A DNA stretch of 64,000 nucleotides, taken from NCBI RefSeq assembly GCF_000348785.1, contig NC_020520.1, positions 4,650,001 through 4,714,000 of the forward strand. Reading direction: 5' to 3'. Shown here piece by piece: positions 6,418 through 63,934 of the stretch. How positions within the stretch are numbered: the stretch's first letter is position 1; each line of letters opens with the position of its first letter. Source of the stretch: Ilumatobacter coccineus YM16-304. GTDB taxonomy: Bacteria; Actinomycetota; Acidimicrobiia; Acidimicrobiales; Ilumatobacteraceae. The translations under genes were made by a program, and so were the position numbers. The notes beneath the pieces are model-generated. The model was not told where the DNA came from. It made no database searches and saw only the letters and a program-made list of their open reading frames with translations.

Positions 6418-7577
6418 GCTCGGTCACGTTCAGCGGCGTCACCAAGCGGTTCGGTACCGACGTCTACGCCGTCCGAGACCTCGACCTCGACGTCGCCGAC
6501 GGCGAACTCCTCGTGGTGGTCGGCCCGTCGGGCTGCGGCAAGACCACGACGCTGCGCATGCTGGCCGGGCTCGAAGACATCACGGCGGGCGAAGTCAAGA
6601 TCGGCGACCAGGTCGTCAACGACCTGAGTGCGAAGGAACGCGACATCGCCATGGTGTTCCAGAGCTACGCGCTCTACCCGCACCTCACGGTCGGCGAGAA
6701 CCTCGGCTACCCGCTCCGCCTCGCCAAGATGCCCAAGCAGGAACTGCGGGAGCGGGTGCGCACGGTCGCCGGCCAACTGCAACTCGACGAACTCCTCGAC
6801 CGCAAGCCGCGCCAACTCTCGGGCGGCCAACGCCAGCGCGTCGCCATGGGCCGGGCGATGGTGCGCGAGCCGAAGGTGTTCCTCATGGACGAGCCGCTGT
6901 CGAACCTCGACGCCAAGCTGCGCGTCACGATGCGCTCCGAAGTGGCCGAACTCCAGCACGATCTCGGTACCACGATGTTCTACGTCACCCACGACCAGGT
7001 CGAGGCGATGACGATGGGACACCGCGTCGCGCTGATGCGTGACGGCGTGCTGCAACAGGTGGCGCCGCCCGAGGAGCTGTACCGGTCACCGGCCAACACG
7101 TTCGTCGCCGGGTTCATCGGCTCGCCGCCGATGAACCTCGTCAACGCGCGAGTCGCCACCTCCGACAGTGGCGACCGTCAGCTGATCACCGGCACCGCCG
7201 CATTCACCATCGCCGGCGACACCGCTCGACCGGAGTCGGCGCTCGCCACGATCGACGAGCGCCCGGTGGTGGCCGGCTTCCGGCCCGAACACGTGCGACT
7301 CGACCCGGCCGGCACGGCCGGTGGCGCAGCCGCCACCGTTCGCCTCGTCGAGATGCTCGGCTCCGAGCATCTCGTCCACCTCAACATCGACGGCATGGAC
7401 CTCCACGGCGCCCCGCACGACGAGAACGCGGCCACGAGCACCCGCGTGCTCGCCAAGCTCCACGACGACGACACCACGGTCCGGCTCGGCGACCACGTCG
7501 CGGTCTCGATCGAGGCCCGCCACGTCCACCTCTTCGACGCCGCCACCGGCGAACGGATCACCGATTCGACCGACTGA
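6414..7577 (+). CDS. Sugar ABC transporter ATP-binding protein, MsmK/UgpC type
   Basis: A 387-residue ATPase expected to energise the two permeases encoded at the window start. Walker A is GPSGCGKTT (Lys43), the signature is LSGGQRQRVAMGRAMV, and Walker B is VFLMDEPLSNLDAKLR. A C-terminal TOBE-like regulatory domain follows (FRPEHVRLDP...), as in MalK/UgpC. The ATG overlaps the GH1 stop. A dedicated ATPase beside the hydrolase is unusual, since many actinobacteria use one shared MsiK for several sugar importers. Family assignment is certain; partnership with the permeases is inferred from proximity. Confidence 0.94.
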   Translation: MSSVTFSGVTKRFGTDVYAVRDLDLDVADGELLVVVGPSGCGKTTTLRMLAGLEDITAGEVKIGDQVVNDLSAKERDIAMVFQSYALYPHLTVGENLGYPLRLAKMPKQELRERVRTVAGQLQLDELLDRKPRQLSGGQRQRVAMGRAMVREPKVFLMDEPLSNLDAKLRVTMRSEVAELQHDLGTTMFYVTHDQVEAMTMGHRVALMRDGVLQQVAPPEELYRSPANTFVAGFIGSPPMNLVNARVATSDSGDRQLITGTAAFTIAGDTARPESALATIDERPVVAGFRPEHVRLDPAGTAGGAAATVRLVEMLGSEHLVHLNIDGMDLHGAPHDENAATSTRVLAKLHDDDTTVRLGDHVAVSIEARHVHLFDAATGERITDSTD

Positions 7578-54012: not shown

Positions 54013-54043
54013 ACACGGGTCCGGGCCGGGTCGACGTCAGGCG
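54006..54043. terminator. Possible bidirectional terminator made from two stop codons
   Basis: CGCCTGA (54006-54012) pairs with TCAGGCG (54037-54043); each arm contains the stop codon of one convergent gene. The loop is long and GC-rich, without T-tract. Confidence 0.35.
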
Positions 54044-55197
54044 CGGGTGACGACGACGCTGCCGACGCTGTAGCCGGCACCGAACGAACAGATCACGCCA
54101 AGGTCGCCGGCGTCGAGGTCGTCACGGTGCTTGTGGAACGCGATGACCGACCCGGCCGACGAGGTGTTGGCGTACTCGTCGAGGATGACGGGCGCCTCGT
54201 CCTCGTCGGGAACCCGGCCGAGCACGCCCTTCGCGATGAGCTGGTTCATCTTGAGGTTCGCCTGGTGGAGCCAGAAGCGGCGCACACCGTGCGCGTCGAG
54301 TCCGATCTCGTCGAGGTGTCCGGTGATGTGCTTGACGACGAGCGGGCACACCTCCTTGAACACCTTCTGCCCGTTCTGACGGAAGACGAGTTCGTGCGGG
54401 TCGCGCTCGTCGTCTTCCGACTCGTTGAGGAACCCGAAGTCGTTGCGGATGTTGTTGGAGAACTGGGTGGCGAGCTTCGTGCCGAGCACGTCCCAGCGCG
54501 GTGCCCGAGCCGGGTCGGACGGGTCGTCGGCGACGACGTCGTCGGTGCGTTCGAGCACCGCGGCCGTGCACGCGTCGCCGAAGATGAAGTGGTGGTCGCG
54601 CAACTCGAAGTTGTTGTGACCGGAGGTGATCTCGGGGTTGACCACCACCACGCACGAGGCGGTGCCGTTGCGGAGCGCATCGACACCGTTCTGCATCGAG
54701 AACGTGGCCGACGAGCAGGCGACGTTCATGTCGAACGCCCAACCGCCCGCGCCGAGCGCGTTCTGGATCTCGATGGCCACAGCCGGATAGGCGCGTTGCA
54801 GGTTCGAGCAGCCGACGATCACCGCGTCGACCTCGTCGGGCCGGCGTCCGGCCTGGGCCAGCGCTTCGAGCACGGCCGGCATCGACATCTCGGCCTGCAG
54901 GCCGAGCTCGTCTTCGCTGCGCGTCGGCAGGTGCGGACGCATGCGGTCGGGGTCGAGCACGCCCGACTTCTCCATCACGTAGCGCGCCTTGATCCCCGAC
55001 GCCTTCTCGATGAACTCGGCATCGGGAAGCTCGCGAGCGACCATGGTGCCCGCGGCGATGGCCTCGGCGTGTTCGCCGTTCCACTTCTCGACCGATGCGC
55101 AGAGCGACGACGCCAGCTCGGCGTTGGTGATCGATTCGGTCGGAGTGAACAGACCGGTGCCGGTGATCGAGACGCCGACGGCGTGCTGAGGACTCAT
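54037..55197 (-). CDS. 3-oxoacyl-ACP synthase III-like enzyme
   Basis: A 386-residue thiolase-fold condensing enzyme. The catalytic triad is Cys161 (NVACSSATF), His311 (WLHQANLKM) and Asn344 (YANTSSAGS). It would condense an acyl-CoA with malonyl-ACP or another acyl acceptor. It is longer than FabH of E. coli (about 317 residues) because of insertions near residues 30-100 (EHAEAIAAGTMVARELP) and 215-270, as seen in beta-ketoacyl synthases of secondary or unusual lipid pathways. TAGCGT lies 7 nt before the ATG, with a 12-bp palindrome just upstream. Confidence 0.9.
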   Translation of the reverse strand: MSPQHAVGVSITGTGLFTPTESITNAELASSLCASVEKWNGEHAEAIAAGTMVARELPDAEFIEKASGIKARYVMEKSGVLDPDRMRPHLPTRSEDELGLQAEMSMPAVLEALAQAGRRPDEVDAVIVGCSNLQRAYPAVAIEIQNALGAGGWAFDMNVACSSATFSMQNGVDALRNGTASCVVVVNPEITSGHNNFELRDHHFIFGDACTAAVLERTDDVVADDPSDPARAPRWDVLGTKLATQFSNNIRNDFGFLNESEDDERDPHELVFRQNGQKVFKEVCPLVVKHITGHLDEIGLDAHGVRRFWLHQANLKMNQLIAKGVLGRVPDEDEAPVILDEYANTSSAGSVIAFHKHRDDLDAGDLGVICSFGAGYSVGSVVVTRA

Positions 55198-55216
55198 CGC
55201 GTCGACGCTAGGCGAC

Positions 55217-55228
55217 TACCCGCGGGTA
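55217..55228. promoter_or_regulatory. 12-bp palindrome upstream of the KAS III gene
   Basis: TACCCGCGGGTA, perfect palindrome lying 6 nt upstream of the -10-like TAGCGT (55210-55205), i.e. in the promoter spacer. Candidate operator. Confidence 0.45.
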
Positions 55229-55261
55229 ACCAGCACAGCGTGGGGAGGTGATTCGACGCGT

Positions 55262-55903
55262 TCAGTCGAGGAGGTGCGTCCGCACGAGGCTGCGGAGACG
55301 GTCGATGCCGTCTCCCTTCGTGGAGCTGACCCACACGACGTCGCCGGGGTCGAGTTGGCAGCCGGCAGCGAGTTCCTTCTTGCGGCCCGGGCGCTTCGAC
55401 GACTTCACCTTGTCGAGCTTGGTGGCGACCACCGTGTGCGGCAGGGCGTTGAAGCGCAGCCAGTCGAGCATCTGGACGTCGAGCTTGGTCGGGCCGATCG
55501 CGCCGTCGACGAGCACGAAGATCATCACCAGCTCCTCGCGTTCGAGGAGGTAGCCCTCGATCATCGCCGGCCAATCACCCTTGATGCTCTTCGACGTCTT
55601 GGCGAACCCGTACCCCGGCAGGTCGACCACGGTGCCGAGGAGTTCGGCGTCGTCACCGGCCGACGGGTTGCTCGGCCGCTGGCGCGAACCCGGCCCTTCG
55701 TCGAGACGGAACATGTTGATGAGCTGAGTACGACCCGGCGTGTTGGAGACGCGGGCGAGTTGCTTGCGGTTCGCACACGCGTTGATGAGCGACGACTTGC
55801 CGACGTTCGACCGGCCGACGAACGCGACCTCCACCGGCGACTCCGGCAGTGTCTTGGCGCGGCTCGCCGACTCGACGAACGTCAACTTGAGCGGACTCGA
55901 CAT
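55262..55903 (-). CDS. engB: Ribosome-biogenesis GTP-binding protein EngB/YsxC
   Basis: A 213-residue TRAFAC-class GTPase needed for 50S subunit assembly. G1 is GRSNVGKSS, G2 lies in NTPGRTQ, G3 in VVDLPGYGFAK, G4 is TKLDKVK and G5 SSTKGDG. Between G2 and G3 there is an insertion of about 20 residues (GPGSRQRPSNPSAGDDAELL) rich in Ser/Pro, absent from typical EngB. GATACT lies 6 nt before ATG 55903. It lies directly upstream of, and co-directional with, the KAS III gene. Confidence 0.95.
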   Translation of the reverse strand: MSSPLKLTFVESASRAKTLPESPVEVAFVGRSNVGKSSLINACANRKQLARVSNTPGRTQLINMFRLDEGPGSRQRPSNPSAGDDAELLGTVVDLPGYGFAKTSKSIKGDWPAMIEGYLLEREELVMIFVLVDGAIGPTKLDVQMLDWLRFNALPHTVVATKLDKVKSSKRPGRKKELAAGCQLDPGDVVWVSSTKGDGIDRLRSLVRTHLLD

Positions 55904-55960
55904 GCGTCGAGTATCCCAGCGATTCGCGCTCGCCGTGCGCGATGCCCGTCGGGAACCGAG

Positions 55961-56006
55961 CGCGAAAAGTGCAAGATCGCCTCGTCGTGTGGCTCTTGCA
56001 AGGTGA
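55961..56006 (+). promoter_or_regulatory. 46-bp conserved upstream element, copy 2
   Basis: Starts with CGCGAAAAGTGCAAGAT and ends with CTCTTGCAAGGTGA. TGCAAGA (55970-55976) and TCTTGCA (55994-56000) form a perfect 7-bp inverted repeat with the same 17-nt spacing as copy 1. It lies about 40 nt before the lipoprotein ATG. Confidence 0.7.
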
Positions 56007-56047
56007 CGGCGCCGCACCGGCGCCCCACAGCATCGGAGCACCTCACC

Positions 56048-56722
56048 ATGACGAACCACACCACCGACATCACCACTGGCACCGGCATCGCCGGCCGCAT
56101 GCGAACCGTCACGATCGCCGCGGCGGTCGCTGCCGCGCTCGGCTTCAGCGCCTGCGGGGCCGTGGCGGAGAAGGCCACCGAGCAGGGGGTGGAGCGCTTG
56201 ATCGAATCGAGCGTCGACGACGAACTCGACGGCTTCGACATCGACCTCGACCTGTCGGACGGCGACTTCAGCATCGACACCGACGCCGGAAGCTTCTCGA
56301 TCGGCGGCGACGGGAGCATCGTGTTCGACACCGACGAGGGATCGTTCGTCGGCCAGGTCGACGAGCACGGCATCGAACTCACCGGCGACGACGGTTCGTT
56401 CCAGGCATCGTCGCAGCTCGCGTCGTTCGACGACTGGCCCGCCGACATTCCCCGCCCGACCATCGAGAACGACGAGTGGTTCGCCGGATCGGTGACGGGC
56501 GACCATCTCTGGTTGACCGCCGGCGGGTCGGTCAGCGCATCCCCTCGTGACGCGGTCATGGCCTACGCCTCGATGTTCGGTTCCGCCGAGGTCGTCGAGG
56601 AGACCTGGGGTGAGTCGGAGGTGGTGACGATCACGACCGACCACTACTCGATCAACGTGCTCGCCGACGTCAACACACTGCGGGGCGGCAGCACCATCTC
56701 GTACACGATCTCGAGCCGATGA
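56048..56722 (+). CDS. Acidic lipoprotein with Asp/Gly/Ser repeats (1)
   Basis: A 224-residue lipoprotein (lipobox LGFSAC). Residues about 55-120 consist of short repeating strands rich in Asp, Gly and Ser (DGDFSIDTDAGSFSIGGDG, SIVFDTDEGSFVGQVDEHG), then DDWPADIPRP and a C-terminal alpha/beta domain of about 90 residues. The acidic repeats could bind Ca2+ or pack as a beta-solenoid. GGAG lies 9 nt before the ATG. It is a paralogue of the next gene. Function unknown; surface location is inferred from the lipobox. Confidence 0.78.
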   Translation: MTNHTTDITTGTGIAGRMRTVTIAAAVAAALGFSACGAVAEKATEQGVERLIESSVDDELDGFDIDLDLSDGDFSIDTDAGSFSIGGDGSIVFDTDEGSFVGQVDEHGIELTGDDGSFQASSQLASFDDWPADIPRPTIENDEWFAGSVTGDHLWLTAGGSVSASPRDAVMAYASMFGSAEVVEETWGESEVVTITTDHYSINVLADVNTLRGGSTISYTISSR

Positions 56723-56828
56723 AGAACCTGGTCAAGTGCCCTGTCCGATCTGCCGACATCAGACCATCGCAGCGATCTACGCTCCGCTACAACGCAAGGC
56801 ATTCCGCCGCTCGACCTGGAGACATCCG

Positions 56829-57641
56829 ATGACACCTCGCAACCGAACCCTCGCCGCGACGACGGCGATCATCGCCCTCACCGCCACGGCGTGCGGCGAC
56901 AGCAGCTCCAGCCAGGAGGCGGCGCTCGAACGACTCATCGAGAACGAGTCGGGCCAGGAGATCGACCTCGATCTCGACGGTGACGGCGGCTTCTCCCTGC
57001 AGTCGGAAGACGGCGGCTTCTCGATCAACGTCGACGACGACGGCAACGTCGTGTTCGACAGCGACGAGGGCAGCGGCACGTTCGACATCGACGGTGACAC
57101 CGGTGGCACGCTCGAGTTCGAAGGAGACGACGGCAGCGGCTCGGTGCAGGTCGGCGAAGACGGCAGCTTCGTCGTCACCGACGAGGACGGCGAGGTCGTC
57201 ACCGGCCAGGCCGACGGCGACGGCGGATTCACCGTCACCGGCGAAGACGGCGAGACCATGGTGACCGACATCGACGAGGACAGCGGCAGCGTCGTGATCT
57301 CGAGCGACGACGGATCGACGTTCGAGTCGGGTCCGGGCATCCCCGATCAGTGGCCCTCCGACATTCCGCAGCCCGTCGGGCTCAGCGACGCCACCGGCAC
57401 CTTCATGGGTGACGCGACGTCGATGAACGTCGTCGTGGCCGGCACCCCGGAGGGCGATCCGATCGCCTACCTCGACGACTACGTGGCACAGCTGGTCGCC
57501 GCCGGGTTCTCCGAGACGGCGACGTACACGTCCGACCAGGCCGTCACCTACACCCACGAGCGCGACGGCATCATGGTCGCCAGCTCGTACAGCGATCTGG
57601 GCGTGACCGGCCAGATCGTCGTGACCATCGGCCAGAGCTGA
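56829..57641 (+). CDS. Acidic lipoprotein with Asp/Gly/Ser repeats (2)
   Basis: A 270-residue paralogue of the preceding lipoprotein (lipobox LTATAC). The repeat zone is longer, about 130 residues, with units such as GGFSINVDDDGNVVFDSDEG and GSGSVQVGEDGSFVVTDEDG, followed by DQWPSDIPQPVGL and a C-terminal domain. Net charge is strongly negative. ATG 56829 is chosen for its GGAG site and lipobox position. The different repeat numbers in the two genes suggest expansion by duplication. The 46-bp element of the other two lipoprotein genes is not seen here. Confidence 0.78.
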   Translation: MTPRNRTLAATTAIIALTATACGDSSSSQEAALERLIENESGQEIDLDLDGDGGFSLQSEDGGFSINVDDDGNVVFDSDEGSGTFDIDGDTGGTLEFEGDDGSGSVQVGEDGSFVVTDEDGEVVTGQADGDGGFTVTGEDGETMVTDIDEDSGSVVISSDDGSTFESGPGIPDQWPSDIPQPVGLSDATGTFMGDATSMNVVVAGTPEGDPIAYLDDYVAQLVAAGFSETATYTSDQAVTYTHERDGIMVASSYSDLGVTGQIVVTIGQS

Positions 57642-57654
57642 CGGCGGATCGGGG

Positions 57655-57864
57655 TCAGCCCGAGATCAGCGTGGCGATCGCCCAGATCGCCGCCACCAGA
57701 CCGATCGCCGCGAAGCCGAGGCTACGCGCCACCGGGGCGGCCTCGAGGTTCGCATCGTCGAGTTGACGCTCGGGTGGCTTGACGACGGCGAGCAGGTTGC
57801 CGACGAACAGGGCTCCGCCGAACGCGAGCACGAGATACGCCAAGAGGTCGTCACCGAGAAACAT
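57655..57864 (-). CDS. Small two-helix membrane protein
   Basis: A 69-residue hydrophobic protein with two predicted membrane helices (LLAYLVLAFGGALFVGNLLAVV and SLGFAAIGLVAAIWAIATLI) joined by a short polar loop (KPPERQLDDANLEAAP). I do not recognise a family. ATG 57864 is preferred to GTG 57870 because TAGCCT lies 8 nt upstream of the ATG but only 2 nt from the GTG. It converges on the acidic lipoprotein gene with 13 bp between. Confidence 0.65.
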   Translation of the reverse strand: MFLGDDLLAYLVLAFGGALFVGNLLAVVKPPERQLDDANLEAAPVARSLGFAAIGLVAAIWAIATLISG

Positions 57865-57944
57865 CGCCACTCAGGCTACGACCGGGTGACGAATCGGGTG
57901 CACAACCCGCTGTCCCGCGCGACTATTCCGAACTGTGACGTTCG

Positions 57945-57976
57945 ACCGAAATAGTTGCACCTTGAACTATTTCGGT
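57945..57976. promoter_or_regulatory. Long perfect inverted repeat upstream of the azoreductase
   Basis: ACCGAAATAGTT and AACTATTTCGGT, 12 bp each, around 8 nt. The right arm abuts the -10 TACGAT (57976-57981). A third, imperfect half-site GACTATTCCG lies at 57921-57930. Typical of a redox- or quinone-sensing MarR/HxlR-type repressor; none is encoded nearby. Confidence 0.7.
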
Positions 57977-57988
57977 ACGATCCTTGCC

Positions 57989-58588
57989 ATGACAACAATT
58001 CTTCGCATCGATTCCTCAGCTCGCCGCGGCGACTCGGTCAGCCGCCAGTTGGCAAGCCGACTCATCGACCGGATCCCCGGCGACGTCACCGTCAAGAGCC
58101 GCGACCTCGCCGCCGGCGTGCCGCTGCTCAGCGAGGCGACCCTCGCCGCCATGTGGACGCCTGCCGATCAGCGCACCGACGAGCACACCGCCGAGCTCGC
58201 CGTGGCCGACGAGTACATCGCCGAGTTGATGGACGCCGACGCCGTGGTGATCGGACTCCCGATCTACAACTTCGGCCCGCCCGCCGCCATGAAGGCCTGG
58301 GCCGACCTCGTCGCCCGCGCGGGCACCACCTTCCGCTACACCGAAACCGGTCCGCAGGGCCTGATCGACGACAAGCCGGTGTACATCGTCGTCGCCTCCG
58401 GCGGGGTTCCGGTCGGTTCGCCGGCGGACCTCTCGTCGACGTGGCTCACGACGTTCCTCGGCTTCCTCGGTCTCACCAACGTGACCGTCATCGCCGCCGG
58501 CCAACTCAACGTCGACCCCGAAGCTGCGCTCGCCGCCGCACAGGCCATCGTCGACGCCACCGACGTCGGCGAGCTCACGCCCGCCTGA
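57989..58588 (+). CDS. azoR: FMN-dependent NADH:quinone oxidoreductase / azoreductase
   Basis: A 199-residue flavodoxin-like enzyme that reduces quinones or azo dyes by two-electron transfer from NADH. The FMN loop is RIDSSARRGDSVSRQLA, and the second signature is VIGLPIYNFGPPAAMKAWADLVARAGTTFRYTE near residues 90-120 (landmark). ATG 57989 lies 7 nt after TACGAT; an upstream in-frame start overlaps the palindrome and was rejected. The operator suggests induction by electrophiles or quinones. Confidence 0.92.
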   Translation: MTTILRIDSSARRGDSVSRQLASRLIDRIPGDVTVKSRDLAAGVPLLSEATLAAMWTPADQRTDEHTAELAVADEYIAELMDADAVVIGLPIYNFGPPAAMKAWADLVARAGTTFRYTETGPQGLIDDKPVYIVVASGGVPVGSPADLSSTWLTTFLGFLGLTNVTVIAAGQLNVDPEAALAAAQAIVDATDVGELTPA

Positions 58589-58634
58589 TCCAGCGTCCGT
58601 CCCGACGGTGAGCGTTCGTGACATGCTCACGCTC

Positions 58635-59909
58635 ATGGATCTCGATGCCGCCGTCACCTCCGCTCGGGCCTCGTTCGTTGCCGCCCATCCGGAGGCGGCG
58701 ACGTGGTCGGATCGCGCCCGACGCGTGCAGCCCGGCGGCAACACCCGATCGGTGCTGCACGTCGATCCGTTCCCGATTCGGGTCGATCGCGCCGAAGGCA
58801 AACACCTCTGGGATCTCGACGGGCACCGCTACGTCGACCTGCTCGGCAACTACACGGCCGGCCTGCTGGGTCACTCCCCCGAACCGGTGCTGGCGGCTGC
58901 TCGGGCAGCGCTCGAGTCGGGCTGGTCGCTCGGCGCGGTGCACGAGAACGAGGTGCGCCTCGCCGAGCTGATCGTCGAGCGCTTCCCGTCGCTCGATCAG
59001 GTGCGCTTCACCAACTCGGGCACCGAGGCCAACATGATGGCGTTGGCCGTTGCAACCCACCACACCGGCCGACGCAAGGTCGTCGTGTTCCGCAACGGCT
59101 ACCACGGCGGCGTCCTCACCTTCGGGGCTGAGCCGAGCCCGGTCACGGTCCCGCACGACTGGGTGCTGTGCGACTTCAACGATCTCGACTCGGTGAGTGC
59201 TGCGTTCGCCGAGCACGGTGTGGAGATCGCGGCGGTGCTCGTCGAGCCGATGCAGGGATCGGGCGGCTGCATCCCGGGTACACCGGCGTTCCTCGCCGGG
59301 CTCCGGTCGCTGTGCGACGATCACGGCGCGCTGCTCGTGTTCGACGAGGTGATGACGTCACGCTTCTCGACGGGCGGCGCGCAGCAGTTGCTCGGCGTGC
59401 AACCCGACATGACGACGCTCGGCAAGTACCTCGCCGGCGGGCTCACGTTCGGTGCGTTCGGAGGTCGAGCCGACGTGATGGCCAACTTCGACCCGGCAGC
59501 AGGCGGCACGCTCGCGCATGCGGGCACCTTCAACAACAACGTCGCCTCGATGGCCGCCGGTGTCGCCGCGCTCACCGAGGTGTTGTCGCCCGAACTGCTC
59601 GACGAGGTGCACGCTCGCGGCGAGCGCTTGCGGGTGCGGCTGAACGAAGCGTTCGCGGCCGCTGGGCTGCCGATGTGCGCCACCGGTGTCGGGTCGTTGA
59701 TGAACGTGCACGGCACGGCCGGCCCGGTCGGCACCGCCGCCGATCTCGCCGACCAGGACGACCGGCTCCGCGAGCTCTTCTACTTCCACTGCCTCGCGAA
59801 CGGCTACTACATCGCCCGCCGCGGCTTGATCGCGCTGAGCATCGAGATCACCGACGACGACATCGACCAGTTCCTCGACGTGGTCGGTTCGTTCGGCACC
59901 GACGACTGA
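58635..59909 (+). CDS. Class III aminotransferase, glutamate-1-semialdehyde aminomutase-like
   Basis: A 424-residue PLP enzyme of the HemL-like group. The PLP lysine is Lys264 in TTLGKYLAGG, with FTNSGTEANMMALAVA for phosphate binding and LLVFDEVMTSRF, where the Asp contacts the pyridine nitrogen. HemL itself usually has T-K-x-I-G-G-G-x-P; here GKYLAGGLTFGAFGG replaces it, so a different aminotransferase is likely. ATG 58635 is chosen with CATGCT 7 nt upstream; GTG 58608 is an alternative. No heme genes are adjacent. Confidence 0.88.
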   Translation: MDLDAAVTSARASFVAAHPEAATWSDRARRVQPGGNTRSVLHVDPFPIRVDRAEGKHLWDLDGHRYVDLLGNYTAGLLGHSPEPVLAAARAALESGWSLGAVHENEVRLAELIVERFPSLDQVRFTNSGTEANMMALAVATHHTGRRKVVVFRNGYHGGVLTFGAEPSPVTVPHDWVLCDFNDLDSVSAAFAEHGVEIAAVLVEPMQGSGGCIPGTPAFLAGLRSLCDDHGALLVFDEVMTSRFSTGGAQQLLGVQPDMTTLGKYLAGGLTFGAFGGRADVMANFDPAAGGTLAHAGTFNNNVASMAAGVAALTEVLSPELLDEVHARGERLRVRLNEAFAAAGLPMCATGVGSLMNVHGTAGPVGTAADLADQDDRLRELFYFHCLANGYYIARRGLIALSIEITDDDIDQFLDVVGSFGTDD

Positions 59910-59923
59910 GCTCGACTCGCCTT

Positions 59924-61243
59924 TCACGCTGGCACTGGTTCGGCCCAGTCGGGTTCGGTTTCGCCAACGGGTGCGATCACCGATCCGTCAGGTCTGATGA
60001 GGTAGATCCGACCGTTCGCCGCTCGGCGGCTGCGGATCGAGTTGGCGTGTTTCCATCTGTCGTGCACTCCGCAGAGGGTCATCGCGTTGCGCTGGTCGGT
60101 GGCTCCGGACGCTGCGGCCCATTCGATGCGGTGATCGATGTCGCAGAACTTCGCGGGAACGTCGCATCCTCGATGCGTGCAGGTGACCGCGAGGAGTTGG
60201 GCGGCCTCGCGAGCCTTGCCGGTGAACAGTCGTTGCGTGCGGCCGAGATCGATCGTGACGCCGTCGGCGTCGATGATCGCCCTGCGAATCCGTCCGCCGA
60301 TCATCGCTGCGAGGGCGATGTCGGGATGCACGGGAGTGCCCTCGACCGCACAGTGCCGGCCCAGCAGGTCGGCCTCCGCCTCGGCGAATGCCTCCGGTCC
60401 GATGCCCGAGATGTCGGCGGACTCGACGAGCCCGTGCGCTTCGAGCACTCGGCCGGCGGTGACCTGGTCGATCACGATGTTGACGAGCGGCTCGGGGACC
60501 CTGCCGCCGACCGGTGCCGTCACCGAGGCCATGAAGATGTTGTACAGCGCGTCGAACCTGCGTTGCTGCGCCGTCCGCGGGAGTGGAGCACCGAGGGCAC
60601 CCTCGCCGTGTTCGGCGCGACGCGCTGCGCAGTCCTTGTGGAACTCGGCTTCGACCGCCTGGTCGAAGATCGCTTTCATCTCGGCTGCGGCCAGCGGTGA
60701 TCCACCCGACGCGTGCACCTCGATCGAGCCGTCGACATCGGCGACGGTGGCGGTCCGTTCGTTCTCGTGGAACCGCTGATCGTCGAACGAACCGTCGGGG
60801 TCGGCCTGCGTGATGAAGTGCGCCACCACGGTGTCGAAGTCGCGGAATTCGAGGTGCTCGGCATGGTCGAGCAACTGCGGGGCGAACTCGGCGAAGCGCT
60901 GCCCGGCCACCGGGTGGAGCGCCGCCTTCGCGAGCACGTCGACTTGGTCGGAGCCGATGCGACCGGCGAGCAGACCGTTGCCGACAGCGACGTCGAGGTT
61001 CACCAGGTCGGCACGTCTGCGGATCTTGTTCGCCGCTGCGCCCGAGCAGTTGAGCCTGCCCTTCAAGTACGTCCGCATCGACCGATAGCCGTGATCTCGG
61101 TAGCCGCCCCGTGCCGCGATCACCGCCGTCACTGCGGCGATCCGAGCTTCCGCATCACGGCGTGCGAGCTCGGCGGCCTCCAACGCCGCATCGAGCCGGC
61201 GAGGCGAGCATTCGGCCAGTTCGTCGATCACCTCATCGAACAT
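59924..61243 (-). CDS. DUF222 / 13E12-repeat HNH endonuclease-domain protein (2)
   Basis: A 439-residue protein with the DUF222 helical region (RDHGYRSMRTYLKGRLNCSGAAANKIRRRADLV) and an HNH domain, CTHRGCDVPAKFCDIDHRIEW...NAMTLCGVHDRWKH. It is not a close copy of the first HNH protein (11 kb away), so this is not a recent duplication. TAGAAT lies 7 nt before ATG 61243 with TTGTGC 16 nt further. An SOS-like box covers the start codon. The 3' end lies 14 bp from the convergent aminotransferase. Confidence 0.9.
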   Translation of the reverse strand: MFDEVIDELAECSPRRLDAALEAAELARRDAEARIAAVTAVIAARGGYRDHGYRSMRTYLKGRLNCSGAAANKIRRRADLVNLDVAVGNGLLAGRIGSDQVDVLAKAALHPVAGQRFAEFAPQLLDHAEHLEFRDFDTVVAHFITQADPDGSFDDQRFHENERTATVADVDGSIEVHASGGSPLAAAEMKAIFDQAVEAEFHKDCAARRAEHGEGALGAPLPRTAQQRRFDALYNIFMASVTAPVGGRVPEPLVNIVIDQVTAGRVLEAHGLVESADISGIGPEAFAEAEADLLGRHCAVEGTPVHPDIALAAMIGGRIRRAIIDADGVTIDLGRTQRLFTGKAREAAQLLAVTCTHRGCDVPAKFCDIDHRIEWAAASGATDQRNAMTLCGVHDRWKHANSIRSRRAANGRIYLIRPDGSVIAPVGETEPDWAEPVPA

Positions 61244-61251
61244 GTGTACGA
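61236..61251. promoter_or_regulatory. SOS (LexA)-like box of HNH gene 2
   Basis: TCGAAC-ATGT-GTACGA, the same arms as the box of HNH gene 1, covering the start codon and touching the -10 TAGAAT (61256-61251). Confidence 0.6.
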
Positions 61252-61256
61252 TTCTA

Positions 61257-61523
61257 CTACGATCTCACAGGGGCACAAGGGCTCTGCAGCGGCGACGAGA
61301 ACGCCAACTCGACACCGCGCTCCCACGGCTCCGAGCAGCGGTCGACGAGCCGCCGATGACGAGATCGCGACGCCGCGGGCCGGCCGATGCCGACGGACGC
61401 GAACGCCGATCAGGCAGTCGCACATCGGCCACTCCGACCACCACAGCGGCACAAGTTTTTCGAAGAATCCTCAGGCCATCGGCACGCTTGTCCGAGTGAC
61501 CGGTAGGCAGTCAGTGGCGATCG
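61257..61523. other. Intergenic region without recognised gene
   Basis: About 270 bp between HNH gene 2 and the DUF1801 gene. Apart from the -35-like TTGTGC at 61278-61273 I see no gene, hairpin with T-tract or repeat in it. Short open frames here have no coding look. Confidence 0.5.
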
Positions 61524-61955
61524 TCAGAACAACGGATCGCCAGGGGCCTGCGCTGCCTGGCGAATCCAGTCACGGACTTGGTCGTCGTCGATCTCGTCGA
61601 GCGTGGCGATGTTCGAGTACCGGACCCGCTCGTCTTTCGACGTGACCGGTGGTGGCGGGTCGAGTTGCGCCCCGTTGAGCCAGGTGACCTTCACGTACTT
61701 CGTGAAGCAGTGCAGGCTGAGAAACCAACCGTTGCCCTCGACACCATAGAACGGCGAGTTCCACCGCACCGCCTTGCGCGCTTCCGGGGCGACCTCGTTG
61801 ACGAGATCGTCGAGATGACGGCCGATCTCGCCTTTCCAGTCCGGCATCGCGGCGAGGTACGCCTGCACCGGGCCGTCACCGTCACCTTTGGGGATCTGGG
61901 GGTTCCCACCCGCGAGCAGTTTCACGTCGCCGGTGCTGCCGTGGTCGGTTGCCAT
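61524..61955 (-). CDS. DUF1801-domain protein
   Basis: A 143-residue protein with the YdhG/DUF1801 fold pattern: LDDLVNEVAPEARKAVRWNSPFYGVEGNGWFLSLHCFTKYVKVTWLNG (landmark, residues about 48-95). Members are small cytoplasmic proteins of unknown function, possibly ligand-binding. ATG 61955 has GAGAGG 8 nt upstream. The VOC remnant directly upstream ends 13 bp before this ATG, so the two may once have formed an operon. Confidence 0.85.
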   Translation of the reverse strand: MATDHGSTGDVKLLAGGNPQIPKGDGDGPVQAYLAAMPDWKGEIGRHLDDLVNEVAPEARKAVRWNSPFYGVEGNGWFLSLHCFTKYVKVTWLNGAQLDPPPPVTSKDERVRYSNIATLDEIDDDQVRDWIRQAAQAPGDPLF

Positions 61956-61968
61956 GTCGGTGGACCTC

Positions 61969-62106
61969 TCAGGTTCGTTGCTGGATGCGGATCAGGTTGC
62001 CGGCCGGGTCCCTGACCGCACAGTCGCGCAGACCGTAGTCCTGGTCCATTGGTTCCCGAACGATCTCGGCGCCCGCTGATCGTCGATCTGTCCGAGCTCC
62101 TTGAGA
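61969..62106 (-). pseudogene. C-terminal remnant of a VOC (glyoxalase/bleomycin-resistance) family gene
   Basis: The last 35 codons read AGAEIVREPMDQDYGLRDCAVRDPAGNLIRIQQRT, the typical closing strands of a VOC protein, including the metal-ligand region DPAGN. An in-frame TGA lies upstream at 62109-62107, there is no start codon or ribosome site, and the plus-strand amidohydrolase begins at 62192, so the N-terminal two-thirds is gone. The adjacent minus frame carries LAPDLKELGQIDDQ, perhaps the preceding part after a frameshift. Confidence 0.65.
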
Positions 62107-62191
62107 TCAGGAGCCAGTCGAGCACCCGGGGCCGCTGGCAGGGAGAAGGCCCGCCTCTCGGTGATCGAGGGCGACATGGGAAGATGCTGTC

Positions 62192-63934
62192 ATGGCTGAG
62201 TACGACCTGATCGTCCGCAATGGGAGCCTCATCGACGGCACCGGGAGTGAGGCGCGGCCCGCCGATGTCGGGGTGCGCGACGGCATCATCGTCGACGTCG
62301 GAACCGTCGACGGTCGCGGCGCGCAGGAGATTAACGCCGACGGCGCGCTGGTCATCCCCGGCATCGTCGACATCCACGCGCACTACGACGGTCAGGCCAC
62401 GTGGGAAGAACGCATGCAACCGTCGTCGTGGCACGGCGTCACCACGGTGGTCATGGGCAACTGCGGTGTCGGGTTCGCGCCGGTGCACGACGACGACCAC
62501 GACGCCTTGATCGAACTGATGGAAGGCGTCGAAGACATCCCCGGCGCCGCGCTGCACGAAGGTCTGGCGTGGAACTGGAACTCGTTCGGCGAGTTCCTCG
62601 ACGCCGTCAACGCCCGCCCGCACGACATCGACGTCGCCGCGCAGGTGCCACACGGCGCCCTGCGCCTCAACGTCATGGGCGAGCGCGGCGCCAACCACGA
62701 AGACGCCACGCCGGCCGACATCGGCGCGATGGCCGAGCTGGCGCGCGAGGCGATCGAAGCCGGTGCACTCGGCTTCACCACCAGCCGCACCCGCAACCAC
62801 AAGACCTCGACCGGCGCATACACGCCAACGCTCACCGCCGCTCCCGACGAGTTGATCGGCATCGCCGAAGGGGTCGGCGCGGCCGGCACCGGCGTGCTGC
62901 AGGTCGTGTCCGACTTCCTCGACGTCGACGACGAGTTCCGCACGCTGCGCACGATGATCGAACGGTCGGGCCGCCCGATGTCGATCTCGGTCGCCCGCAA
63001 CCCGATGCTGCCTGACGCCTTCCGCGGCATCCTCGACCACATCACCGCGGCCAACGCCGACGGACTCACGATGACCGGGCAGGTCGCCGCTCGCGCCGTC
63101 GGGCTGATCCTCGGGCTCGAGTGCACGCTCAACCCGTTCCTCAACAACCCGGTGTTCGCCGAGATCGCCGACCTCCCGCTCGCCGAGAAGGTCGCTGCGC
63201 TGCGCGATCCAGCGTTCCGCGCACGCCTCGTCGACAGCCACCGCATGGCCACGCGCGAGCGCGACAAGCTCGGCGGCGGACTCATCACCAAGTTCGAGTT
63301 GCTGTTCGAGATGAGCGACGACCCCGACTACGAGCCGGCACTCTCCTCGTCACTCGCCGCGCGGGCCGCGGCCTCGGGCACCACGCCCGAAGAACTCACG
63401 ATCGACGTCATGCTCGGCGCCGACGGCGATGGCCGCGGCCTCATCTACATCCCGTTCCTCAACTACGTCGACGGTCGACTCGATGCCGTGCACGAGATGC
63501 TCGTGCACCCGCACACCGTGCCGGGGCTCGGCGACGGCGGCGCTCACGTCGGCACCATCTGCGACGGCAGCTTCCCCACCACGCTCCTCCAGTACTGGGG
63601 CCGCGATCGCGAGACCGACCGCATCGACCTGCCGTTCCTGGTCCAGCGCCACTGCCAGCAGACCGCTCGCACCGTCGGCCTCCTCGACCGCGGTGTGATC
63701 GCCCCCGGCTACCGCGCCGACCTCAACGTGCTCGATCACGCCAACCTCCGACTGCACAAACCGACGATCGCCCACGACCTCCCCGCCGGAGGCCGACGCC
63801 TCCTGCAGCGAGCCGACGGTTGGCTGCACACGATCGTGGCCGGTCACGAGACGTACCGCAGCGGCGAGGCCACCGACGCACTGCCCGGTCGCCTCGTCCG
63901 CGGCGCCAAGCCCGCACCGGCGAGCGTGGCCTGA
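62192..63934 (+). CDS. N-acyl-D-amino-acid deacylase-type amidohydrolase
   Basis: A 580-residue TIM-barrel metal hydrolase of the D-aminoacylase/amidohydrolase 3 group. The metal HxH is His62/His64 in VDIHAHYDG, preceded by the usual small beta-domain (LIVRNGSLIDGTGS). Later motifs are TSRTRNHKT, VSDFLDVDDE and the catalytic Asp in LGDGGAHVGTICDG. It would cleave N-acyl groups from D-amino acids or a related amide. A GGGAAG stretch lies 8 nt before the ATG. Its stop overlaps the next gene. Confidence 0.92.
   Translation: MAEYDLIVRNGSLIDGTGSEARPADVGVRDGIIVDVGTVDGRGAQEINADGALVIPGIVDIHAHYDGQATWEERMQPSSWHGVTTVVMGNCGVGFAPVHDDDHDALIELMEGVEDIPGAALHEGLAWNWNSFGEFLDAVNARPHDIDVAAQVPHGALRLNVMGERGANHEDATPADIGAMAELAREAIEAGALGFTTSRTRNHKTSTGAYTPTLTAAPDELIGIAEGVGAAGTGVLQVVSDFLDVDDEFRTLRTMIERSGRPMSISVARNPMLPDAFRGILDHITAANADGLTMTGQVAARAVGLILGLECTLNPFLNNPVFAEIADLPLAEKVAALRDPAFRARLVDSHRMATRERDKLGGGLITKFELLFEMSDDPDYEPALSSSLAARAAASGTTPEELTIDVMLGADGDGRGLIYIPFLNYVDGRLDAVHEMLVHPHTVPGLGDGGAHVGTICDGSFPTTLLQYWGRDRETDRIDLPFLVQRHCQQTARTVGLLDRGVIAPGYRADLNVLDHANLRLHKPTIAHDLPAGGRRLLQRADGWLHTIVAGHETYRSGEATDALPGRLVRGAKPAPASVA

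Follow-up and report, generated by a model that had tools for sequence, protein, structure and literature searches.

We report a pair of candidate operators, O1 and O2, at the azoR promoter of Ilumatobacter coccineus YM16-304, located within the window (the whole 64,000-nucleotide stretch of DNA that was analyzed). From computed sequence matches at O1 and O2, a conserved position, shared target genes, and a motif link to the promoters of MarR genes, we infer, with a probability of roughly 70%, that a MarR repressor binds both sites, blocks a leaderless azoR promoter, and is released by an aromatic or quinone-like ligand.

Operator O1 (57945 to 57976, no strand assigned) is a perfect 12+8+12 palindrome, as a sequence-only reading of this DNA had described, with arms ACCGAAATAGTT (57945 to 57956) and AACTATTTCGGT (57965 to 57976) that are 100% complementary across an N8 spacer. 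Its core, TTGCACCTTGAA, occupies 57955 to 57966 and starts at −34 relative to the azoR ATG. The same reading had extended the palindrome into the −10 element and called it AT-rich in GC-rich DNA, and both descriptions hold: the final T of O1 is the first base of TACGAT (57976 to 57981), and 57900 to 57988 has a GC content of 54%, against 68% across the window. It had also called O1 the longest perfect inverted repeat noticed; this was in error, as the 14-nt arms at 2030 exceed the 12-nt arms of O1. That repeat (2030 to 2066) is the longest perfect one in the window at gaps of up to 20 nt, with GC-rich arms and a 9-nt loop, and is terminator-like. Perfect inverted repeats with arms of at least 12 nt also occur at 7349, 31842, and 39665.

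Of 100 dinucleotide-preserving shuffles of the whole window, 42 contained one or more perfect repeats with arms of ≥12 nt and a gap of ≤20 nt (mean, 0.87 per window; nested repeats counted separately), so the length of O1 alone is not significant; the case for O1 rests on its position, its conservation in relatives, and its recurrence at other genes. A purely fortuitous or structural origin of the palindrome (e.g., as an RNA hairpin), with no regulatory role, would be in keeping with the shuffles and with a weak third half-site; we give it almost no weight, since the place of O1 is conserved in eight genus azoR promoters and the operator recurs at pirin and YceI genes. O1 lies upstream of the −10 and is therefore unlikely to be transcribed from the azoR promoter. 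A genome search for other copies, which had been proposed as a check, returned none at up to three mismatches in the 4,830,181-base genome, leaving O1 as the sole copy of the palindrome, and AATAGT-N(2–30)-ACTATT had no second occurrence in that genome. The sequence AGTTGCGNNCGCAACT, at up to two mismatches, gave fewer matches than its reversed control in each of 10 genus genomes and was uninformative. One match to a shortened palindrome pattern (G000:350002) was rejected; lying just beyond a MarR gene, it appears to be a chance match.

The presumed regulated gene, azoR (57989 to 58588, forward strand), encodes a 199-aa protein of flavodoxin fold (Pfam Flavodoxin_2, 2.5e-38). Its best relatives of solved structure (PDB 4c14 and 4c0w; E value, 2.1e-36) are azoreductases/quinone reductases, and the best NCBIfam azoreductase model gave 90.5 bits against a cutoff of 188. 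The label of azoreductase, assigned on first reading, therefore stands as kinship with FMN-dependent NADH-azoreductases/quinone reductases, at a score below the NCBIfam azoreductase cutoffs. Distribution is patchy: azoR was found in 15 of 298 genomes of the order, I. coccineus among them, and in 7 of 10 genomes of the genus, again counting I. coccineus; the 11 other members of its family in the order set gave no match. The small divergent ORF (57655 to 57864, reverse strand; 69 aa) is membrane-protein-like by reading, has no Pfam match, and is not recognizable as a regulator. By reading, the products of two adjacent genes at 56000 to 57641 are lipoprotein-like and secreted; the second has acidic repeats (DNA period, ~27 to 30 bp) and no Pfam match. 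Synteny with Ilumatobacter relatives around azoR was seen over 54037 to 63934 in several genus loci; genes recurring near azoR encode a FabH-like protein and an EngB-like GTPase (by reading) and a class III aminotransferase and an amidohydrolase (Pfam), and a glyoxalase-superfamily gene lies directly upstream of azoR in L022/L131 and L030 to L032.

As read from its sequence, the azoR promoter appears to be of the leaderless type, with the −10-like TACGAT (forward strand) 7 nt before the ATG. A −35-like TTGCAC (57955 to 57960) forms the left half of the O1 core and is separated from the −10-like hexamer by a spacer of 15 nt, a layout comparable to those of other genus promoters (e.g., TTGTGT-16-TATAAT in L030). 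With its core at −34, O1 overlaps the −35-like and −10-like hexamers, a placement in keeping with that of MarR operators, which are dyads of about 16 to 24 bp over the −35/−10 of the target. In several promoters the TTG of the left half doubles as a plausible −35, and a dimer sitting there would obstruct polymerase directly.

A third half-site upstream of the palindrome, also claimed on first reading, was borne out in part. The element (57918 to 57930, forward strand; CGCGACTATTCCG) is present, with GACTATTCCG at 57921 to 57930, 14 nt 5′ of the left O1 arm; the match is partial, as it resembles only the right half of the operator (CRCAACTATT), from which CGCGACTATT (57918 to 57927) differs by one mismatch. 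It scored below 4 in the matrix scan. A full operator was rejected here, as the right half alone matches, and the element is probably weak or vestigial. In five of eight genus azoR promoters (window, L022, L030, L031, and L032) a TATTC element lies 31 to 32 bp before the core; it lies at 39 bp in L029 and is absent from the upstream stretch searched in L027 and L028.

Conservation of the O1 site was assessed across eight Ilumatobacter azoR promoters (the comparison was made without L025, a more distant member of the genus with 52% identity and a TTAC-type site). A TTGYG-NN-CRCAA dyad occupies the same place in the seven promoters other than that of the window (L022 and L027 to L032), and all seven carry the full TTGYGNNCRCAA core. 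The core starts at −34 in the window and L030, at −32 in L027, and at −35 in L022, L028, L029, L031, and L032. The O1 core (TTGCA..TTGAA) deviates from TTGYG..CRCAA at 4 of 10 positions, a fit to TTGYGNNCRCAA of 6 of 10; O1 surpasses its relatives in the perfection of its outer arms, but its inner core has drifted. Matrix scores reflect this, with O1 at 12.0, L027 at 18.4, and six genus azoR sites, each scored leave-one-out, at 26.3 to 33.7; L031 and L032 score 24.1 and 25.0 when both are left out of the matrix. Because the O1 core has drifted, the assignment of a MarR partner to O1 is the weakest step of the argument.

For the matrix scan, 13 genus sites were used, with the azoR sites of the window and of L027 left out. 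Across the 64-kb window, O2 ranked first (17.1) and O1 (57948 to 57973) second (12.0), followed by a match at 7.4. A score of the size of O1's is expected 0.07 times per 64 kb, and none of 200 shuffles matched the O2 score of 17.09, the highest coming close at 17.06. Candidate operator O2 (57977 to 58002, no strand assigned), the best site in the 64 kb, has its core TTGCCATGACAA at 57984 to 57995, over the azoR start codon and 29 bp after the O1 core, and fits TTGYG-NN-CRCAA at 8 of 10 specified bases. It overlaps the azoR coding sequence ATGACAACAAT, so part of the match may be codon usage. O2 was missing from the half-sites listed by the sequence-only reading, and it outscores the third half-site that was included.

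The 29-bp distance between O1 and O2 falls within the tandem spacing of 28 to 30 bp, an arrangement that is not universal in the genus: a second site scoring above 4 is absent from four of the eight azoR promoters, all with a strong O1, and in L031 and L032 such a site follows at 15 bp. Second sites at a start codon also occur at the L027 azoR gene (27 bp) and at the YceI genes of I. coccineus and G298 (30 bp each). Among the eight azoR promoters, a start-codon O2 is present in the window and in L027, the pair in which O1 is weakest, a suggestive coincidence that comprises only two cases. A simple trade-off between O1 and O2 is opposed by the I. coccineus and G298 YceI promoters, in which the first site is good and the second weak (9.9 and 11.4).

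The perfection of the outer arms, which is not common to the relatives, invites the alternative that a non-MarR repressor (TetR, LysR, or HxlR type) binds ACCGAAATAG/CTATTTCGGT and that the core resembles MarR sites only by coincidence. HxlR-like sites at azoR in other Acidimicrobiales and further dyads at Rhodobacterales azoR genes would be in keeping with such a protein, whereas the CTATT flank is common to several genus sites, the TTG/AA columns of the core and its position are conserved, and both top matrix matches of the window fall on the azoR promoter. We consider it highly improbable.

A MarR repressor acting at O1 and O2, the reading we prefer, also draws on recurrence of the operator at other genes. 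In 10 genus genomes, TTGYGNNCRCAANTATT at up to one mismatch returned 19 rows, corresponding to 17 distinct places (reversed pattern, 6 rows). Our reading assigns 13 of these places to promoters of azoR (4), pirin (7), or YceI (2). Pfam was run on the I. coccineus pirin, the G306 pirin, and both YceI proteins; gene contexts were read for motif rows only, and for the G305 pirin just the 22 N-terminal residues were available. The remaining four places (G300:C88, G301:C593, G303:C29, and G302:C9) are without evident link; the G302:C9 place precedes an aminotransferase-like ORF by 91 bp. In the I. coccineus genome, strict TTGYGNNCRCAA was found four times, fewer than its reversed control (11): in the YceI promoter (gene near G000:182810), in the pirin promoter (gene near G000:1315557), inside a methyltransferase-like ORF, and inside a permease-like ORF. 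The motif being rare there, it is its placing that matters, not its frequency. A MarR gene near G000:348730 was dropped as a candidate, as the nearby site lies inside a methyltransferase-like ORF.

The operator was linked to MarR regulators in two ways. Of 396 genomes of the phylum, 10 contained exact TAGTTGCNNNNGCAACTA, at 10 places in all, and 6 contained the reversed control; gene contexts were read for the motif places. Five of the 10 places are at the promoters of MarR genes (Pfam MarR; L206, L207, L208, L209, and L214), with the sites in L207 and L208 shared with a divergent YceI gene; two are at VOC/glyoxalase-superfamily genes (L211 and L212), and three are without clear context. The L206 MarR gene is divergent from a DoxX gene and its product carries the helix SGLTRR, and the other four MarRs have helices that are related to SGLTRR but different.

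Helix and operator were then compared at the 30 best-scoring MarR loci (matches were found in 129 of 298 order genomes), 22 of which encode SGLTRR-like helices. Within 160 bp upstream, TTGY-N4-RCAA, a looser pattern picked post hoc, was present at 14 of 22 SGLTRR-like loci versus 0 of 8 loci with other helices (Fisher P = 0.0027), and strict TTGYGNNCRCAA was present at 9 of 22 versus 0 of 8 (P = 0.067); as the loci are related, these P values are only a guide. Shuffled promoters gave means of 0.11 of 22 for the loose pattern and 0.01 for the strict one. Eight of the 22 SGLTRR loci lack even the looser site. Among the best 30 loci, tandem site pairs at MarR promoters were spaced 28 to 29 bp apart in five of seven cases. 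These counts suggest that an S.SGLTRR recognition helix goes with the TTGYG-NN-CRCAA motif in the order. The original proposal that the palindrome serves a stress-type regulator of the azoreductase is supported by these results: its place is conserved in the genus, the operator recurs at pirin and YceI, and it appears to be of the MarR-type class.

The best candidate regulator in the I. coccineus genome is the MarR protein encoded at G000:C1:3308654-3309097 (helix SPSGLTRRLD; Pfam MarR_2, 4.5e-10), which is 49% identical to that of L206. Its group (46 to 49% identical to the L206 protein) was found in 8 of 10 genus genomes and was not found in G302 (72% complete) or G304 (81%), both of which have azoR with good sites. 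No site above 4 was found in the candidate's own promoter by matrix scan; its start codon carries TTGTGGTGGCAA with one mismatch. The gene lies outside the window, and no regulator was seen beside azoR in the window or in L027 to L032 (ORFs by eye; flanks of up to 5 kb, shorter in L032), in agreement with the earlier statement that the regulator gene is not in the window. MarR genes beside azoR were found only in L010 to L012 and in the duplicates L072 and L081, using one MarR query over the ORFs of the collected loci, which distant MarRs could escape. In L010, L011, and L012, loci of distant Acidimicrobiales, azoR is divergent from the MarR gene, with TTCAANNTTGAA-like sites.

The last arrangement bears on a rival in which O1 is bound by a different I. 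coccineus MarR with an S.SR(L)T helix (e.g., that at G000:C1:1970712), recognizing TTGANNNNTCAA or TTCAANNTTGAA, the regulator having been switched in this species. Of 10 specified bases, the O1 core has 8 in common with TTCAANNTTGAA and 6 with TTGYGNNCRCAA, and a switch to an SRLT-helix MarR is for this reason a serious rival. The right half of the O1 core, CTTGAACTA, is moreover the half-site in L011 and L012, the L011 MarR helix is SQSRLTQR (L236 is the same genome and place), and the promoter region of the 1970712 MarR carries TTGACATATCAA and TTGACTCATCAA sites. We nevertheless regard the switch as unlikely: O1 retains the operator position of the genus, its left half ATAGTTGC belongs to the TAGTTGC class, O2 fits the TTGYG class (17.1), and the sites of the 1970712 MarR are TTGA..TCAA, unlike O1. 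The 1970712 MarR, which lies beside a second pirin gene, was demoted as the cognate regulator on account of those sites; close homologues of it (66 to 92% identical) were found only in G298 and G302. A further I. coccineus MarR (L147; helix MITSGAMTNRLDRL) has a promoter dyad of another class, ATCTCTTGACATGAAGATATC..GATGTCAAGAGATAA.

In the mechanism we propose for a MarR-family repressor, a dimer at O1 would occupy the stretch from the −35, whose TTGCAC falls in the left core half, to the −10 TACGAT. O2, which lies 29 bp further on across the −10 and the start codon, could take up a second dimer, and RNA polymerase would thereby be kept off the leaderless azoR promoter. A small aromatic, quinone, or flavonoid-like compound would bind the repressor and cause it to leave the DNA, after which azoR would be produced and would reduce the inducing compound. 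The class of inducer is suggested by MarR precedent together with the azoR, pirin, and YceI targets.

A broader picture, tentative and on balance somewhat doubtful, is that of an undescribed actinobacterial electrophile-stress regulon (azoR, pirin, and YceI; elsewhere VOC/glyoxalase-superfamily and DoxX genes) run by S.SGLTRR-and-kin MarRs via TTGYG-NN-CRCAA sites, often 27 to 30 bp apart, with the second over a leaderless start codon; here and in L027 the upstream azoR operator would have decayed, as if control had moved from O1 to O2. No report of a joint MarR/azoreductase/pirin/YceI regulon was found in the open-licence literature, and to our knowledge, few stress regulators have been studied in the Acidimicrobiia. 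For this class, the analysis provides an orphan operator with a likely family of regulators and with a small regulon, and it offers a testable helix-to-operator rule for one MarR subtype. It would also bring two kinds of protein of poorly understood function, pirin and YceI, under one switch with an azo/quinone reductase.

Switches of this kind are already well known. MhqR of Bacillus subtilis and Staphylococcus aureus is likewise a MarR repressor with a palindromic operator and quinone-response genes. Targets of Bacillus MhqR include dioxygenases and an azoreductase. The present system differs in operator sequence, in that the regulator is not beside azoR, and in its targets (azoR, pirin, and YceI). 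In S. aureus, quinone binding to MhqR frees the DNA, and the mhqRED operator is TATCTCGAA-ATCGAAATA (PMC12893000).

RosR (Cg1324) of Corynebacterium glutamicum, which is H2O2 sensitive, is likewise an actinobacterial MarR. Its consensus is TTGTTGAYRYRTCAACWA, and FMN reductases are among its targets. It differs from the present case in the bases of the core and in being autoregulated. In a study of RosR, one of two rosR sites is TAGGTGATATGACAACAC, and mutating TAGGTGATATGACAACAC also alters RosR residue T2 (PMC7764795), so this site probably overlaps the rosR start codon, like O2. The likeness to MhqR and RosR appears to lie in the way of working, and orthology with either is not claimed.

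In other bacteria, YodB, HypR, and QorR (HxlR/DUF24) control azoreductases or quinone reductases. O1 differs from their sites in not being of the TTACTTA..GTAAGT type, and no TTAC/GTAA-type dyad was found by eye in 57890 to 57990. For a wider view, 80 of 566 azoR-like loci in wider contigs were kept, and 74 non-genus upstream regions were read. Azo reductase homologues of distant Acidimicrobiales carry TTACTTA/GTAAGT sites, a motif that we take to be HxlR-like, and the dyads at Rhodobacterales azoR genes are unlike that of the window. With azoR divergent from a MarR gene in L010 to L012 and HxlR-like sites at other distant homologues, this enzyme appears to have come under the control of three or more types of regulator.
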